Below the pieces are notes generated by a model that was not told the DNA's origin, searched no databases, and saw only the letters and a program-made list of their open reading frames with translations. A stretch of DNA of 64,000 bases from Candidatus Saccharimonadota bacterium (GTDB taxonomy: Bacteria > Patescibacteriota > Saccharimonadia > Saccharimonadales > Saccharimonadaceae), in contig WQWN01000006.1 of assembly GCA_009785325.1 (NCBI GenBank), forward strand, positions 1 through 64,000, read 5' to 3'. Shown here piece after piece: positions 25,037 to 59,063 of the stretch. Each line of letters begins with the position of its first letter. Positions within the stretch are counted from its first letter, which is position 1. A program made the position numbers and the translations under genes.

Positions 25037-27796
25037 CTAACTTTCTACCTTCAGCTCCCTCTTCAGTCTCTCCACCAGCTCTCGCTGCTCTTCCATCGCC
25101 TGCTTAGTCTCCACCACCAGTTCCTTCGGCGCTTTCTTCATATAATTCTCATTCAAAAGCCGCGCTCTCAGTTTCTCCTTCTCCTTCTCCGCCTGCCATA
25201 GCCGCTCCTCCAAATTCACTCTATGCTGCACCAGCACTTCCGCGTCCACCTCTAGCCACACATTTCGCCCCGCCACCGCTAACTTCATCCCGACCCCTTC
25301 TTCCACCTCTCTTACTTCAGGCACTCGAGCCAAAAACCTCACCAGCTCCGCATTCTCCGCCACCAGTTCATCTTCACGATATCCCACCGCATATCGTCCA
25401 TTTCCAGGCAGCTCACTCGTCACAAATCGGATCTCGCCCACCACCTTCATCACCTCTTCAAACTTCCCCGCCTTCACATCATCAAATTTCAAATCCTCGA
25501 TCCACCCTGCCCCGATCAACTCTCCTTTCGTCCAGCTCAGCGTCTGCCAGATCGTCTCACTCACAAAAGGCGCAAACGGATGAATCAGCCTCAAACAACT
25601 CTCCAGCACCCACGCCATCAGCCCTGGATTCCCCGTCAGCTTACTCACCTCCACATACCAGTCCGCCACACTTCCCCAAATCACTTGATAAACCAACTCG
25701 CTCGCCTCCGCAAACCTATAATTCCCCATCAACTCCTCAAGCTCATCTCTCGCCCTGAGAATCTCCCGCACCACCCAGTCATCCCCTTGCCCCGCCAGCT
25801 CTACCGCACCGTCCCACTCAAAATCCTCCCCTACTGTCGTCTGAATATACCGCGCCACATTCCACAACTTATTGCACAAGTTCCGCCCCGCCACTACCTT
25901 CGACTTCGCAAACGCCTGATTCTGCCCCGCACTCCTCGCCGCCACGATCCCGAGTCGAAACGCATCCGACCCATACTCCGCGATCACCTCCATCGGATTT
26001 ATCACATTCCCCTTGGACTTACTCATCTTCTGTCCCTTCTCGTCCAGAACTAGCCCGTGCATATATACTTCTTTAAAAGGCACCTGCCCTGTCTCATAAA
26101 CCCCGAGCATAATCATCCTGCTCACCCACGGAAACAACAAGTCACTCCCCGTCTCCATCACGCTGTTCGGATAAAACCTCTTAAGCGCCGTCGATCGAGA
26201 TCCAATTTCTTGTGTCGTAACCCCGCAGGACGGCGAGGAATTAGCGCTCGAGACCTGTGACGACAGGCTCGAGGAGCGGCGACACAAGGAATTTGGATCC
26301 GATTCGCATTCTGTTCCAGACTCCGGATCAGAATGAAAATAATTCGTCACCACAAAAGGCCACTGCGCACTCGAAAACCACGTATCAAAAGTATCCTCAT
26401 CTCGCACATAACGTATCCCATTCACCACAATCTCCGTCTCCTCCACGCGCTCATCGTACAACCAAACTGGCGGATCTGCCACGTCCAGTCCATTATCAAT
26501 CGCATCAATTTCTTCCCGAGTCAGTACATCATCGCCATCCTCTGCCCCTTCTTTTCCCATCCGCCTAAACATCGGTATCGGAATCCCCCACGGGATCTGC
26601 CGCGAGATATTCCAGTCCTTCAAATTCTCAAAATACCGAATCAAAACATCCTTCTTCCCTGCTGGCACAAACCGGATCTCATCCGCCTTCAAAACCTCCA
26701 CCGCCTTGAGAACCATCGGCTTTACATTAATAAACCATTGTTCCATCAGCATCGGCTCAATCACCGTGTCACACTTGTAGCACACCCCTACCCTGTTCTG
26801 ATAATCTTCCTCCACCTTCACTAATAAGTCCTTCTCGATCAGAGCTTCCACCACAGCCTTCCGCGCCTCTTCCACTGTCATCCCCTCAAACCGCCCCGTA
26901 TTCGCCAACATCTTCCCGTCCATCCCGATCACTTTCTTCGCATCTAGTCGATGCCTCTGCGCCACTTCCCAGTCATTAAAATCATGCGCCGGCGTCACCT
27001 TCACTACTCCTGTCCCGAACTCCATATCTACCATCTCGTCCGCCACCACCGTGATCGCAAACGGCCCGTTCACCCCCTCCACGTCGATCACCTTCCCGAT
27101 ATATTTCTTGTACCGCTTATCATCAGGATGTACCGCCACCGCCGTATCTCCAAATTTCGTCTCCGGCCGCGTAGTCGCCAGCACAAAAGGCCCATATTTC
27201 AAATAATAAAGCGGCGTCTTCCGGTCCTCATAGTTCACCTCAATATCCGCAAAAGCCGTCTGATGTTTCGTGCAATAATTCACCAGCTTCTCGCCTCGGT
27301 AAATCATCCCGTCATCCCACAGTCGCTTAAACGTTCGATAAACCGTCTGAATCACTTTTTTATCCAGCGTAAACACTAAATCATCCCACGAACAACTCGC
27401 GCCCATCGCCCTCAGTTGCAGTTCCATATTCCCCCGTTGCTCCGCCACAAAATCCCAAACCTGACTATATAATTGTTCACGTGAAAAGTCAAACCTCGAC
27501 CCACCTGCCCTCTCCAGTTCCTTCTCGTAAACCACCCACGTCTCAAACCCCGCGTGATCCGCCCCGGGTATGTAAATCGTATCTCGCCCCCTTAGCCTAT
27601 GATACCGCGTCAAAACATCCTCCAACGCAATCACCAGCCCATGCCCGATATGTAGATTTCCATTAGCATTCGGCGGTGGCATCACGATAGCGTACGGCTC
27701 ACCCTTCCCGCTCGGTCGAAAAGCCTTACTCTTCTCCCATAGTTCATAAATCATCGGCTCAAACCGCCCCGGTTCATAAGTCTTCGTAAATTTCAT
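25037..27796 (-). CDS. valS: Valyl-tRNA synthetase with palindromic-element insert
   Basis: A 919-residue class I synthetase charging tRNA-Val. HIGH lies at residues 49-52 (NANGNLHIGH), the editing domain includes LATTRPETKFGDTAV, there is a zinc-like CYKC pair, and KMSKSKGN is near residue 590. An anticodon-binding domain and the C-terminal Val-type coiled coil follow. Between YFHSD and ALKRFYPNSV, about residues 487-543, sits an extra stretch of some 50 residues rich in Ser, Cys and Pro. It has no counterpart in the family and is encoded by an inverted-repeat element with unlike codons. The -10 TAAACT lies 6 nt before ATG, so the mRNA is probably leaderless. Confidence 0.96.
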   Translation of the reverse strand: MKFTKTYEPGRFEPMIYELWEKSKAFRPSGKGEPYAIVMPPPNANGNLHIGHGLVIALEDVLTRYHRLRGRDTIYIPGADHAGFETWVVYEKELERAGGSRFDFSREQLYSQVWDFVAEQRGNMELQLRAMGASCSWDDLVFTLDKKVIQTVYRTFKRLWDDGMIYRGEKLVNYCTKHQTAFADIEVNYEDRKTPLYYLKYGPFVLATTRPETKFGDTAVAVHPDDKRYKKYIGKVIDVEGVNGPFAITVVADEMVDMEFGTGVVKVTPAHDFNDWEVAQRHRLDAKKVIGMDGKMLANTGRFEGMTVEEARKAVVEALIEKDLLVKVEEDYQNRVGVCYKCDTVIEPMLMEQWFINVKPMVLKAVEVLKADEIRFVPAGKKDVLIRYFENLKDWNISRQIPWGIPIPMFRRMGKEGAEDGDDVLTREEIDAIDNGLDVADPPVWLYDERVEETEIVVNGIRYVRDEDTFDTWFSSAQWPFVVTNYFHSDPESGTECESDPNSLCRRSSSLSSQVSSANSSPSCGVTTQEIGSRSTALKRFYPNSVMETGSDLLFPWVSRMIMLGVYETGQVPFKEVYMHGLVLDEKGQKMSKSKGNVINPMEVIAEYGSDAFRLGIVAARSAGQNQAFAKSKVVAGRNLCNKLWNVARYIQTTVGEDFEWDGAVELAGQGDDWVVREILRARDELEELMGNYRFAEASELVYQVIWGSVADWYVEVSKLTGNPGLMAWVLESCLRLIHPFAPFVSETIWQTLSWTKGELIGAGWIEDLKFDDVKAGKFEEVMKVVGEIRFVTSELPGNGRYAVGYREDELVAENAELVRFLARVPEVREVEEGVGMKLAVAGRNVWLEVDAEVLVQHRVNLEERLWQAEKEKEKLRARLLNENYMKKAPKELVVETKQAMEEQRELVERLKRELKVES
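26199..26335. repeat. Palindromic element inside valS
   Basis: Outer arms 26199-26217 and 26280-26299 pair with one mismatch and one bulge over about 18 bp. They enclose a strong hairpin at 26248-26273 (CTCGAGACCTGT-GACG-ACAGGCTCGAG). A further hairpin CATTCTG...CAGAATG spans 26307-26335. It stays in frame and adds about 50 codons to valS. Confidence 0.85.
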
Positions 27797-28909: not shown

Positions 28910-29842
28910 CTAGCGTCGCGCCCGTATCTTTCGTACAGCTCGATTCACCGCTCGCAGCCTCTTAAATCCTGCATACTTCACTCTGTTAATTGGTAAATCC
29001 CAAGTCCCCAAATACTCCCGCAAACTCCCCCCAAAACCCTTCTTAAATTTCGTAAACCCATACCAGTCATGTCCTGGGTCCTCACTCACCGTCACTCCAT
29101 AAAAATCAAATTCTCTCATCCCACTCCTTTTCGCATCCATCATCATCTCCACCACCAACACCGTCCCCGCCGACAATTTTCGGTGTTCAAAATCCGCCGC
29201 CGCATGCGCATAATACCTCACTCCTTCCAGATCATAAACCATACTCGCCGCCACAACTTCCCCTGCAAACTCCGCCAGATACAAAACCCCAATCCCTGCC
29301 TCCATCTGCTTCCTCAAATACTCCTCATCATGCAAATTCACCCCATTATTCTTCGCCACGCCTCGGAGTAGGGTAGTGAGATACTTCAGATCCTCCACGC
29401 CCGTCGACTTCCGCACCTTCAGCCCCTTCCGTTCATACCCCCTCCACAAATTCCGATTATTCTGCTTCATCCCCATCAAAATCTCCTCCTCCGTCCCCGC
29501 CAGATCCACACACCAAGTAAATTCAGGATTCACCTCCTTAATCTTCCGAAACCCCATCTCCCGCAAAACCCCAGCACTCACACCCTTCACAGGCTCCACC
29601 CTCACAAAAAACGCTCCCGCCTCACCAGCCAACTTCTTCAGCTCCCTAAAAGCTTCCCTCGCACTTTCCTCATCCACAAAACTCGGCCCATACGGCACAT
29701 ACAGATAATCTCCTATCGCCGTCTTCTCTCTCACCGCCATAAACTCCCACTCCTCCCCACTTCGCCGCCAAACCTCCTTCCTCAACTCCCTCTGAAACCC
29801 CTCCCATTCCTCACTTTGCAAAAAATGCCTCTTCAATTCCAT
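28910..29842 (-). CDS. FemAB-family aminoacyltransferase
   Basis: A 310-residue enzyme of the Fem/MurM family. These enzymes transfer amino acids from aminoacyl-tRNA to the stem peptide of lipid II, in the cytoplasm beside the membrane. Two GNAT-like halves are visible: FLQSEEWEGFQRELRKEVW with YLYVPYGPSF, then MKQNNRNLWRGYERKGLKVR and the later VAASMVYDLEGVRYYAHAAA. The family ending GLREYLGTWDLPINR appears as GSLREYLGTWDLPIN. The ATG at 29842 is preferred because TACAAT lies 6 nt before it. It fits a Gram-positive type wall with cross-bridges; the amino acid added cannot be read from sequence. Confidence 0.92.
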   Translation of the reverse strand: MELKRHFLQSEEWEGFQRELRKEVWRRSGEEWEFMAVREKTAIGDYLYVPYGPSFVDEESAREAFRELKKLAGEAGAFFVRVEPVKGVSAGVLREMGFRKIKEVNPEFTWCVDLAGTEEEILMGMKQNNRNLWRGYERKGLKVRKSTGVEDLKYLTTLLRGVAKNNGVNLHDEEYLRKQMEAGIGVLYLAEFAGEVVAASMVYDLEGVRYYAHAAADFEHRKLSAGTVLVVEMMMDAKRSGMREFDFYGVTVSEDPGHDWYGFTKFKKGFGGSLREYLGTWDLPINRVKYAGFKRLRAVNRAVRKIRARR

Positions 29843-29848
29843 GCTCCA

Positions 29849-29854
29849 ATTGTA
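29849..29854 (-). promoter_or_regulatory. -10 element, leaderless FemAB gene
   Basis: TACAAT, 6 nt, then ATG at 29842 on the minus strand. Confidence 0.6.
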
Positions 29855-29867
29855 CACTACTTCAAAA

Positions 29868-30017
29868 CCTCACAGGAGAGCAAACCTACCTTTCACAAGA
29901 CTGGAAACATCTGTGACGACAGATGTGGGTGAAACGCATGAGGATGTTCCGCGTGACGACGCGCGAACACCTCAGAGTGAGCTTGTGAAAGGTAGTGTTT
30001 GAGACTTTGTTGTGAGG
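29868..30017. repeat. Intergenic palindromic element between tsaD and the FemAB gene
   Basis: Nested arms: CCTCACA (29868) with TGTGAGG (30011), then 29881-29899 with 29982-30001 (19 bp, one bulge). Inside are two hairpins: ACATCTGT-GACG-ACAGATGT (29907-29926) and GTTCCGCGT-GACG-ACGCGCGAAC (29946-29968). Both loops read TGACGA with their closing pair, as in valS and argS. This fills the whole 175-bp gap. Confidence 0.9.
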
Positions 30018-30018
30018 A

Positions 30019-31041
30019 TTATCCTATTTCTACCTCATACGGATCACACGGACTTCCATTCAGCACGTGAAAATACCCCGCACTCGCAATCATCGCCGCA
30101 TTATCCGTACATAATTCCATCACTGCATAGTCGACAGAGCAGGGGAGCCGCCGAGTAATCTCCTCTCTCAAATACCGATTCGCACTCACTCCTCCCGCAA
30201 TCACCACACTCTTCGGCGCAAACTCTTCATACGCCGCACACAACTTATCCACCAAATACCCCACCGCCGTCTTCTCGAAACTCGCTGCAAAATCCCAGAC
30301 TTGCTCCTCACTTAGTCTCTCTGCCAGTCCTCCGCTCGGAAAATCAATCCCTACACCCACCTCTTTCTGTACAGCCCGTAAAACCGCCGTCTTCAGTCCA
30401 GAAAACGAAAAATCATACGGTTTATCCACCTTCGGCTTCGGCAATTTAAACTTCCCCCGATCACCACTCAGTGCTGCCTTCCCGATCGCCGGCCCGCCAG
30501 GGTAGGGGAGTCCGATCATCTTCGCCACCTTATCAAACACTTCCCCCACCGCATCATCCCTCGTCGTCCCGATAATCTCAAAATCCCCATGTCCTCTCAT
30601 CAAAATCAACTGCGTATGCCCCCCACTCACGACCAACGCCAGCAAAGGAAACTCAGGCGCCGCCAGCCCCCTCTCATCCTCGATAAAATTCGCATAAATA
30701 TGCCCCTCAATATGATCCACTAAATAAAGCGGCTTCTTCTTCAACGCCGCATAAGTCCGCGCAGCTAAAGTCCCTACCAACAGCGACCCCAAAAGCCCTG
30801 GTCGATAAGTCACCGCAATCGCATCAATCTCCTCCCACCCCTCAGCACCTTTCACCGCCTCCCGCACCACTGCATTCACCACCTCGATATGACTTCGCGC
30901 CGCCACCTCTGGCACTACCCCACCATAAACAGCGTGTATGTCAATCTGCGAATTCACCACATTTGAAATCAGTTTCCGCCCATCTTCCACTACCGCCGCC
31001 GCCGTCTCATCACAACTCGTCTCAATCCCCAAAACTTTCAT
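30019..31041 (-). CDS. tsaD: tRNA threonylcarbamoyladenosine transferase TsaD
   Basis: A 340-residue ASKHA-fold enzyme that moves the threonylcarbamoyl group to A37 of ANN-reading tRNAs, with TsaB/E. The N-terminal MKVLGIETSCDETAAAVVED, metal-binding HIEGHIYAN, phosphate loops VVSGGHTQL and GEVFDKVAKMIGLPYPGG, and the C-terminal VVIAGGVSANRYLRE with CTDNAAMIA are all present. Length is normal. TAAGAT lies 6 nt before the ATG, and the 6 nt (GGAGGA) could also act as an SD on a longer mRNA. It ends against the palindromic element at 30017. Confidence 0.97.
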   Translation of the reverse strand: MKVLGIETSCDETAAAVVEDGRKLISNVVNSQIDIHAVYGGVVPEVAARSHIEVVNAVVREAVKGAEGWEEIDAIAVTYRPGLLGSLLVGTLAARTYAALKKKPLYLVDHIEGHIYANFIEDERGLAAPEFPLLALVVSGGHTQLILMRGHGDFEIIGTTRDDAVGEVFDKVAKMIGLPYPGGPAIGKAALSGDRGKFKLPKPKVDKPYDFSFSGLKTAVLRAVQKEVGVGIDFPSGGLAERLSEEQVWDFAASFEKTAVGYLVDKLCAAYEEFAPKSVVIAGGVSANRYLREEITRRLPCSVDYAVMELCTDNAAMIASAGYFHVLNGSPCDPYEVEIG

Positions 31042-57122: not shown

Positions 57123-59063
57123 ATGGAACAAATATCATCACAACTCACCCAAATCATCTCTAAAGAGTTTGATCTTGAAATCCGTCCAGCCATCACCATC
57201 CCCGACCCCAAATTCGGCGACTTCGCGACCAATGTCGCTCTCCAAATCGCTAAACCTCTCGGCAAGAACCCCCGCGAAATCGCCCAAACCATCGCCGACC
57301 AACTCCCAGACGCTACCGTGGCAGGCCCCGGCTTCATCAATATCCGTCTTCCCGACACTGAGCTTCTCGCTACTCTCGACTCCATAAACTCTGACCCAAA
57401 TTTCGGTGCCTCCAAAATCTACGACAAAAAAATCGTCGTCACCGAATACTCCGATCCAAACCCTTTCAAGGTCCTCCACATCGGCCATCTCTACACTTCT
57501 GTTGTCGGCGACGCCATGTCTAATCTCATCGAAGCCGCAGGCGGTACCACCCACCGCGTCAACTTCGGTGGCGACGTTGGCCTTCATGTCGCAAAAGCCA
57601 TGTGGGGCATCATCCAGCACTTCGGCGGCGAACATCCCGAAAAACTCACCAACATTCCAGAGAGCGAACACATGGATTTTATCTCTGCTCGTTACGTTGA
57701 GGGAAACAAAGCTTACGAGGAAAACCCCGCCGCAAAAGCCGAAATCGTCGCCACCAACAAGCGCATCTACGCCCTCTTCGATCAACTCGATTCTCCCGAA
57801 ACTCTCGGCTCAAAGTCCCCAGAAGGCACAATTATTGCCCAGAAGCGTGCGAAACAATCTATTCAGGCGGGTAAGACTAGGGCTAGCGCCCCGGAGCGCA
57901 CGCCTGAAGAGATTGTTGACGCGAGCGACACAGTTGATCCGTTTGCGACTATTTACTGGACTTGTCGCCAGTGGTCATATGACTATTTCGACCAATTCTA
58001 CGCCTCTATCGGCGTCAAATTCGAGAAATACTATCCCGAATCCGCCACTGCCCAAATCGGCCTCAAAACCGTCAAAGAACAACTCAAAAACGGCGTCTAC
58101 GAAGAATCAAACGGCGCTATCATCTTCGATGGCGAAAAACACGACCTCCACACCCGCGTCTTCATCAATTCCGAGGGACTTCCTACCTACGAAGCCAAAG
58201 ATCTCGGCCTCTCCCTCGCAAAAGCCCGCGATTACAATTTCGACAAATCCATCATTATCACCGGCAACGACATCACCGAATACATGAAAGTCCTGCTTAA
58301 ATCCATCGAGCAATTCCGCCCCGACCTCAGTAGCAAAACCCTCCATCTTACTCACGGCATGGTTAAACTTGCCGGCGGCGTCAAACAATCCAGCCGCCTA
58401 GGTAATTTCGTAAAAGCCGTCGACACGATCGATATCACCAAAAAAGTCCTAGAAAAAGAACAGGGCAGTGCAGACCCAGAGATCGTCCTCGGCGCCATTA
58501 AGTACGCCTTCCTCAAAAACTCCGTCGGCCCCGACATCATCTTCGACCCAGAAACTTCCGTCTCTCTCCAGGGCAACTCCGGCCCCTACCTCCAGTATTC
58601 CCTCACGAGGGCTAAGTCTATCTTAAGGTCACTTGGAGGAGCTAGCCCGACGACCGCTGCGCCCCGACCATCTTCCGATAGAGGCTCTCCGAAGAATGAC
58701 GATTCTCGGAGTGAGGAAGGGATGTCCACCCGTAACGACGGGATGGACTCCATTCCGTACTCTGAGGAAGTTCGGTCGGGTCAGCAGGCGACAGAAAGCG
58801 ATCTCGACACTCACGAACGCGCCCTCCTGAAAAAACTCTCCGACTACTCATATATCCTCGAAAAATCCACCTCCGACCTCGCTCCACACCACCTCTGTGC
58901 CTACCTCTACGAACTCGCCCAGACCTTCAACCGTTTCTACGAAAACGCAAAAGTCGCAGGCGACCCTCGCGAAGTCATCCGCACCCGCCTAGTCCGAGCT
59001 TACGCCCACATCCTCTCTCGCGCCCTCATCACTCTCGGTATCCCCACCCCAGACAAAATGTAA
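57123..59063 (+). CDS. argS: Arginyl-tRNA synthetase with two palindromic-element inserts
   Basis: A 646-residue class I synthetase, about 70 longer than usual. An N-terminal tRNA-binding domain precedes the ATP site with HIGH in PFKVLHIGHLYTSVVGDA. GNSGPYLQYSLTRAKSIL and an all-helical anticodon domain ending RVRAYAHILSRALITLGI-like (RLVRAYAHILSRALITLGIP) follow. Two stretches look foreign: about residues 232-271 (AQKRAKQSIQAGKTRASAPE) and about 504-560 (SDRGSPKNDDSRSEEGMSTR). Both are polar, with AGG/AAG/GCG-type codons unlike the rest, and both coincide with inverted repeats in the DNA. The frame and catalytic motifs are intact, so the enzyme should work. Confidence 0.95.
   Translation: MEQISSQLTQIISKEFDLEIRPAITIPDPKFGDFATNVALQIAKPLGKNPREIAQTIADQLPDATVAGPGFINIRLPDTELLATLDSINSDPNFGASKIYDKKIVVTEYSDPNPFKVLHIGHLYTSVVGDAMSNLIEAAGGTTHRVNFGGDVGLHVAKAMWGIIQHFGGEHPEKLTNIPESEHMDFISARYVEGNKAYEENPAAKAEIVATNKRIYALFDQLDSPETLGSKSPEGTIIAQKRAKQSIQAGKTRASAPERTPEEIVDASDTVDPFATIYWTCRQWSYDYFDQFYASIGVKFEKYYPESATAQIGLKTVKEQLKNGVYEESNGAIIFDGEKHDLHTRVFINSEGLPTYEAKDLGLSLAKARDYNFDKSIIITGNDITEYMKVLLKSIEQFRPDLSSKTLHLTHGMVKLAGGVKQSSRLGNFVKAVDTIDITKKVLEKEQGSADPEIVLGAIKYAFLKNSVGPDIIFDPETSVSLQGNSGPYLQYSLTRAKSILRSLGGASPTTAAPRPSSDRGSPKNDDSRSEEGMSTRNDGMDSIPYSEEVRSGQQATESDLDTHERALLKKLSDYSYILEKSTSDLAPHHLCAYLYELAQTFNRFYENAKVAGDPREVIRTRLVRAYAHILSRALITLGIPTPDKM
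57853..57917. repeat. Palindromic element 1 inside argS
   Basis: Arms 57853-57869 and 57901-57917 pair at 16 of 17 positions, enclosing the hairpin GGGC-TAGC-GCCC. It is in frame within the gene. Confidence 0.82.
58657..58784. repeat. Palindromic element 2 inside argS
   Basis: Imperfect outer arms 58657-58676 and 58766-58784 enclose two hairpins: one at 58685-58715 with GAAT-GACG-ATTC at its tip, and one at 58724-58748 with CCCGT-AACG-ACGGG. Outer stem, two hairpins and NACG loops match the intergenic copy at 29868-30017. Confidence 0.85.

Follow-up and report, generated by a model that had tools for sequence, protein, structure and literature searches.

Rickettsia is the best-known case of palindromic elements that lie in frame within many essential genes. 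As summarised in PMC10969869, the Rickettsia palindromic elements (RPE; Ogata et al. 2000, 2002) are palindromes of ~100-150 bp that form several families, lie in frame within unrelated housekeeping genes of a reduced genome and are described as encoding a conserved peptide. RPE-4 and RPE-6 are included among the CGTC-tagged REPs, palindromic repeats of 20-40 bp, some of them intragenic, which carry an unpaired tetranucleotide tag at one end and for which no dedicated transposase is known (PMC3733652). Locus-specific inverted repeats are also found in the mitochondrial coding sequences of nematomorphs, and template switching has been proposed for their upkeep; in the portion of that report available to us, no conserved core is described and both arms encode conserved residues (PMC6649704). 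Template switching has moreover been reported to homogenise the arms of inverted repeats and to invert their spacers in yeast genes (PMC8604942), and another study reports that it creates RNA hairpins (PMC8794818).

Here we describe a palindromic element from a 64-kb stretch of DNA (the window) belonging to a 678-kb genome of 7 contigs that is ~76% complete. By its size, its occurrence in several families and its in-frame position in housekeeping genes that are unrelated to one another, again within a reduced genome, the element would be RPE-like in kind, a likening by description, and we do not file it as an RPE. Unlike RPEs, it belongs to a different phylum, its outer stem is private to each copy, and it uses both orientations and five of the six reading frames, so that no conserved peptide is encoded. 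It shares palindromy and the GACG/CGTC tetranucleotide with the CGTC-tagged REPs, but here the tetranucleotide forms the apical loop of a ~120-nt element. A conserved core likewise separates it from the nematomorph palindromes, as far as the available text on these goes. Quasipalindrome (template-switch) mutation provides a parallel in arm homogenisation and spacer inversion (PMC8604942, PMC8794818); it is however a mutational process and not an element, and the inverted spacers reported for it measure only a few bases, against a 74-nt core in our case.

Results

The intergenic copy (29868-30017, + strand), of a two-hairpin subtype, almost fills the gap between a 315-aa gene (28910-29857, - strand) and a 340-aa gene (30019-31041, - strand). 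Its folding energy is -77.8 kcal/mol, compared with -39.8 +/- 3.7 for shuffled sequences (z -10.4). Within the arms (29868-29899 and 29982-30017), a perfect 14-bp stem (29886-29899/29982-29995) is followed by interrupted pairs that extend out to CCTCACA/TGTGAGG, and TGACGA loops top both inner hairpins (29907-29926 and 29950-29963). A preliminary description of this DNA had reported this palindrome, with its outermost pair and its two hairpins, and the fold is indeed far above chance. It had also recognised the same loop in valS and argS, and we found it at 26254-26267 (CCTGT-GACG-ACAGG) in valS and at 58693-58706 (AGAAT-GACG-ATTCT) and 58729-58742 (CCCGT-AACG-ACGGG) in argS. T[AG]ACGA hairpins with at least five Watson-Crick pairs number 5 in the window, against 0-2 in 20 Markov simulations, and all five are on the + strand, each within the intergenic, valS or argS palindrome. 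The whole genome contains 12 such hairpins (0-3 in simulations), ten of them within elements; the other two (C1:502 and C1:153084) look like chance matches.

The valS insert (26193-26299, + strand; fold z -7.8) is of a single-hairpin subtype and lies antisense to its gene (25037-27796, - strand; 919 aa, assigned by Pfam), whose frame stays open through the element. Arms at 26193-26216 and 26281-26299 enclose a core at ~26217-26280 that holds the hairpin at 26254-26267, and the covariance model matches 26205-26292 (E 1.9e-17). In a by-eye comparison, one loop of ValS, which has ~5 residues in most relatives, is longer by ~50 residues. A short extra palindrome, CATTCTG...CAGAATG (26307-26335), adjoins the copy within the same stretch of the protein, and relatives lack the whole stretch. 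Unrelated inserts occupy the loop of the window element in the valS of two relatives, L076 (G008, 1133-aa frame) and L085 (G011, 954-aa frame).

The argS gene (57123-59063, + strand; 646 aa, Pfam) is open through two palindromic inserts. One of them (58662-58780, + strand, sense; fold z -4.4) is of a diverged two-hairpin type, with arms at 58662-58683 and 58758-58780 around the hairpins 58693-58706 and 58729-58742, and stands in place of a short linker; relatives are without it. The other (57855-57915) has a different core without the GACG loop, and its arms (57855-57869 and 57901-57915) were taken from the fold of 57701-57990. The AlphaFold model of ArgS has a mean pLDDT of 84.9 and drops below 50 only at residues 224-269, which contain the insert at 57855-57915, and at residues 510-556, which are partly encoded by 58662-58780. 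Both segments are predicted to be disordered and the rest of the enzyme to be confidently folded. Thus, the inserts appear to be translated and tolerated as disordered linkers.

Three further valS-type cores occur in the same genome (C2:78445, C3:61114 and C1:40507, with 95, 87 and 82% identity over ~60 nt), together with a second intergenic-type core (C3:40141-40226, 86% over 86 nt) inside a 607-aa ORF. Open frames 344-607 aa long contain these four copies (C1:40.5k, C2:78.5k, C3:40.2k, C3:61.1k); the core is conserved in all, whereas the sequence of the outer stem is different in each.

BLAST searches with the core revealed further copies in other genera of the taxonomic family. In an ungapped alignment of 11 copies found in this way, 15 of the 22 modelled pairs had changed on both sides, giving a covariation score of 0.560 compared with 0.247 for shuffled alignments and at most 0.167 when slid. 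Within the taxonomic family, the covariance model R1, used for the family search, matched 93 of 295 genomes, spread over 14 of 61 genera; its per-genome copy numbers are lower bounds in several genomes, to be read as "at least", and orthologous copies still inflate some counts despite filtering. Two genomes that were read almost in full, G270 and G375, have ~22-24 copies each. In a phylum-wide sample of 380 genomes only six gave matches, all within the same taxonomic family. Most carriers are metagenome-assembled genomes, and those with names are Candidatus Saccharibacteria, many from ruminant gut. The expectation of many copies, covariation and a fixed loop was borne out, with a loop that is nearly fixed.

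Rfam covariance models at their gathering scores matched only tRNAs in the window and left the element without a match, which rules out a known RNA family there. Nor did a literature search find a description of such an element in Saccharibacteria, in agreement with the preliminary description, which knew of no described family with this loop in Patescibacteria. As for viral carriage, exact matches to two core patterns were not found in IMG/VR, and this candidate was set aside.

The element consists of a 60-nt core with the T[G/A]ACGA hairpin, a conserved inner stem of ~13 bp and a copy-specific outer stem of ~15 bp. Among 60 non-redundant copies of the same subtype as in G270 and G375, sequence conservation ends ~13 nt from the core, while the arms remain well paired as far as ~30 nt from the core anchor, beyond which pairing drops to the level of swapped arms. 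The median stem score is 14 for a copy's own arms and 3 when arms are swapped between copies, and the paired unit measures 116-124 nt (interquartile range). Weak base preferences persist at left-arm positions 19-21 and 28-29. Open-ended growth of the arms clashes with the sharp end of the stem.

Among 123 non-redundant copies, 97 are contained in ORFs of at least 200 aa whose frame continues through the entire stem, and 24 are in no such ORF. The ORF-borne copies are both sense (56) and antisense (41), and five of the six frames are used by intragenic copies, which rules out a conserved encoded peptide. Selection of the core for openness in many frames was likewise rejected, since open frames are no commoner than in shuffled sequences.

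Stem mismatches on the strand that reads GACG are biased: G.T outnumbers A.C by 102 to 46 (p = 5e-6; p = 5e-5 after correction for composition), and the per-copy sign test gives 50:15. If pairing in the host mRNA were responsible, the wobble bias would reverse in antisense copies. It does not reverse: the G.T:A.C ratio is 38:9 in antisense copies, where it is strongest, and 36:22 in sense copies. Thus, the host mRNA is not the constrained molecule, and a hairpin of the host mRNA is rejected as the selected structure. The bias favours the GACG strand in both gene directions, and the constrained form is therefore the folded single GACG strand of the element itself, as DNA or RNA. The alignment also suggests two candidate tandem G.A mismatches in the hairpin, which would stack only on the GACG strand.

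Comparison of G270 and G375 revealed many sites occupied in one species only and several occupied in both; occupancy was assigned from the species comparison rather than from tree polarity, and several individual alleles were read by eye. Most unoccupied sites lack the entire unit, both arms included. At a pheT-like site, agreement with the unoccupied allele is 14 of 15 positions for the left outer arm and 9 of 15 for the right, against a null 99th percentile of 12. The mnmA site gives 14 for the left arm and 8 for the right, though a relic hairpin is present there in G375. At a convergent-stop site both arms match the unoccupied allele (14 and 13), which is itself a small palindrome, CTGTAA|TTACAG, with the element at its centre; split matches in three further genomes (G258, G338 and G398) suggest insertions at this site there too. 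Because neither outer arm reached the null 99th percentile in the other six of nine comparisons, copying of the target into the outer arms is not general, as measured, and the view that every outer arm derives from the target by copying was narrowed accordingly. A single fixed polarity of arm copying was also dropped, as reading by eye suggested both directions. No conventional target-site duplication, which the preliminary description had proposed to look for, was seen by eye in ~9 site comparisons with diverged flanks.

The preliminary description had taken different stems around the same loop as a sign of compensatory change. The covariation is strong, but much of this pattern is other than ordinary compensatory drift: each copy has outer ~15 bp of its own, which in one case, where the site is clearly unoccupied, partly match the target.

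At one locus (G270 C3:25329, G375 C2:35333) the 74-nt core is 100% identical in the two species and inverted between the arms; the flanks run in the same direction with 85-87% identity, and the arms carry paired changes. Independent re-insertion could instead account for this inversion. The same ~25-bp arms are present at two non-orthologous promoters (G270 C6:16902 and G375 C7:12346), which means that arms can also travel with the core.

Different elements were also met at shared positions. Three sites with a GACG element in G375 have quite different palindromic cores in G270 (C1:82589-82693, C1:83757-83945 and C1:156327-156505), suggesting that several core families share the same tolerant loops. 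One locus (G375 C17:89945, G270 C1:129580-129702) holds elements of different subtype and opposite orientation, and the right arm of its G375 copy is tandemly duplicated. In another genome (L213, G061), the mnmA loop occupied by a GACG element in G270 contains an inverted repeat whose stem is specific to the site and whose core, ATATGCTTGGCCGAACGGCCTTGAG, is short and different.

Discussion

The element is probably best explained as a dispersed, non-autonomous palindromic selfish element of ~120 nt that folds in single-stranded form, with arms that template switching keeps complementary. It would insert in either orientation, between genes or in frame within them, and copies would survive in surface loops, where they would be translated rather than removed. 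The strand that reads GACG folds when single-stranded, be it ssDNA or RNA, and it is this form that is constrained. The outer ~15 bp may stay complementary through quasipalindrome correction, in which replication switches template between the arms; such a switch may transfer the sequence of one arm, or of the flank, to the opposite side, and may also flip the core. The fixed stem of 28-30 bp is not predicted by open-ended correction, and its length may reflect a measured insertion step or selection against longer stems. A variant, which we hold to be possible though doubtful, is a minimal mobile element of a new kind, which has no enzyme of its own and moves in the form of a folded single strand. 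Its outer stem, of fixed length (~15 bp past the conserved part), would be rebuilt at each landing site by inverse copying of one flank onto the other side.

Mobilisation by a transposase, as for a MITE or REP with a partner enzyme in trans and arms that represent degenerate terminal inverted repeats, is unlikely. Size, palindromy and dispersal fit such an origin, and a lack of a dedicated transposase is reported for CGTC-tagged REPs as well (PMC3733652), but the outer ends are not conserved (conservation to ~13 nt, pairing to ~30 nt) and target-site duplications were not seen by eye between the diverged flanks. Moreover, Y1_Tnp (PF01797), the sole transposase family searched, was present in only one of seven carrier genomes, the incomplete genome of the window being among the six without it; a RAYT/Y1 transposase is thus ruled out as mobiliser for these six. 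Still less probable is a structured RNA under selection, one of the two readings given in the preliminary description; this would be a regulatory element or small RNA that was scattered by duplication and whose stems changed by ordinary compensatory mutation. The strong covariation, the candidate tandem G.A mismatches read from the alignment and the excess of G.T over A.C on one strand would all suit it. However, the copies are spread over unrelated genes in both sense and antisense orientation and share no position with respect to promoters, empty homologous sites are frequent, and the wobble bias does not track the host mRNA strand; one strand folds, yet equally when antisense to the gene, and no RNA function is indicated.

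Long stable stems inside essential genes might also be expected of an intron-like insert that is removed from the RNA, or of one that is bypassed during translation. Removal or skipping would need no open frame, but the intragenic copies keep the frame open through the stem, and the argS insert is predicted to be a flexible linker in an otherwise confidently folded enzyme. We consider this explanation very improbable, and a spliced or bypassed insert was discarded on the open frames.

The host-dependent Saccharibacteria, with their tiny genomes, are a second lineage after Rickettsia with in-frame palindromic elements in many essential genes, here with the twist that stem length is fixed and stem sequence private. 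Sequence data can now be used to test to what extent repeats and proteins of natural bacteria are shaped by template switching in replication, and in what way transposase-poor genomes gain dispersed repeats. The inserts also matter for annotation, since they lengthen tRNA synthetases, UvrB, MnmA and proteins like them by tens of unstructured residues.
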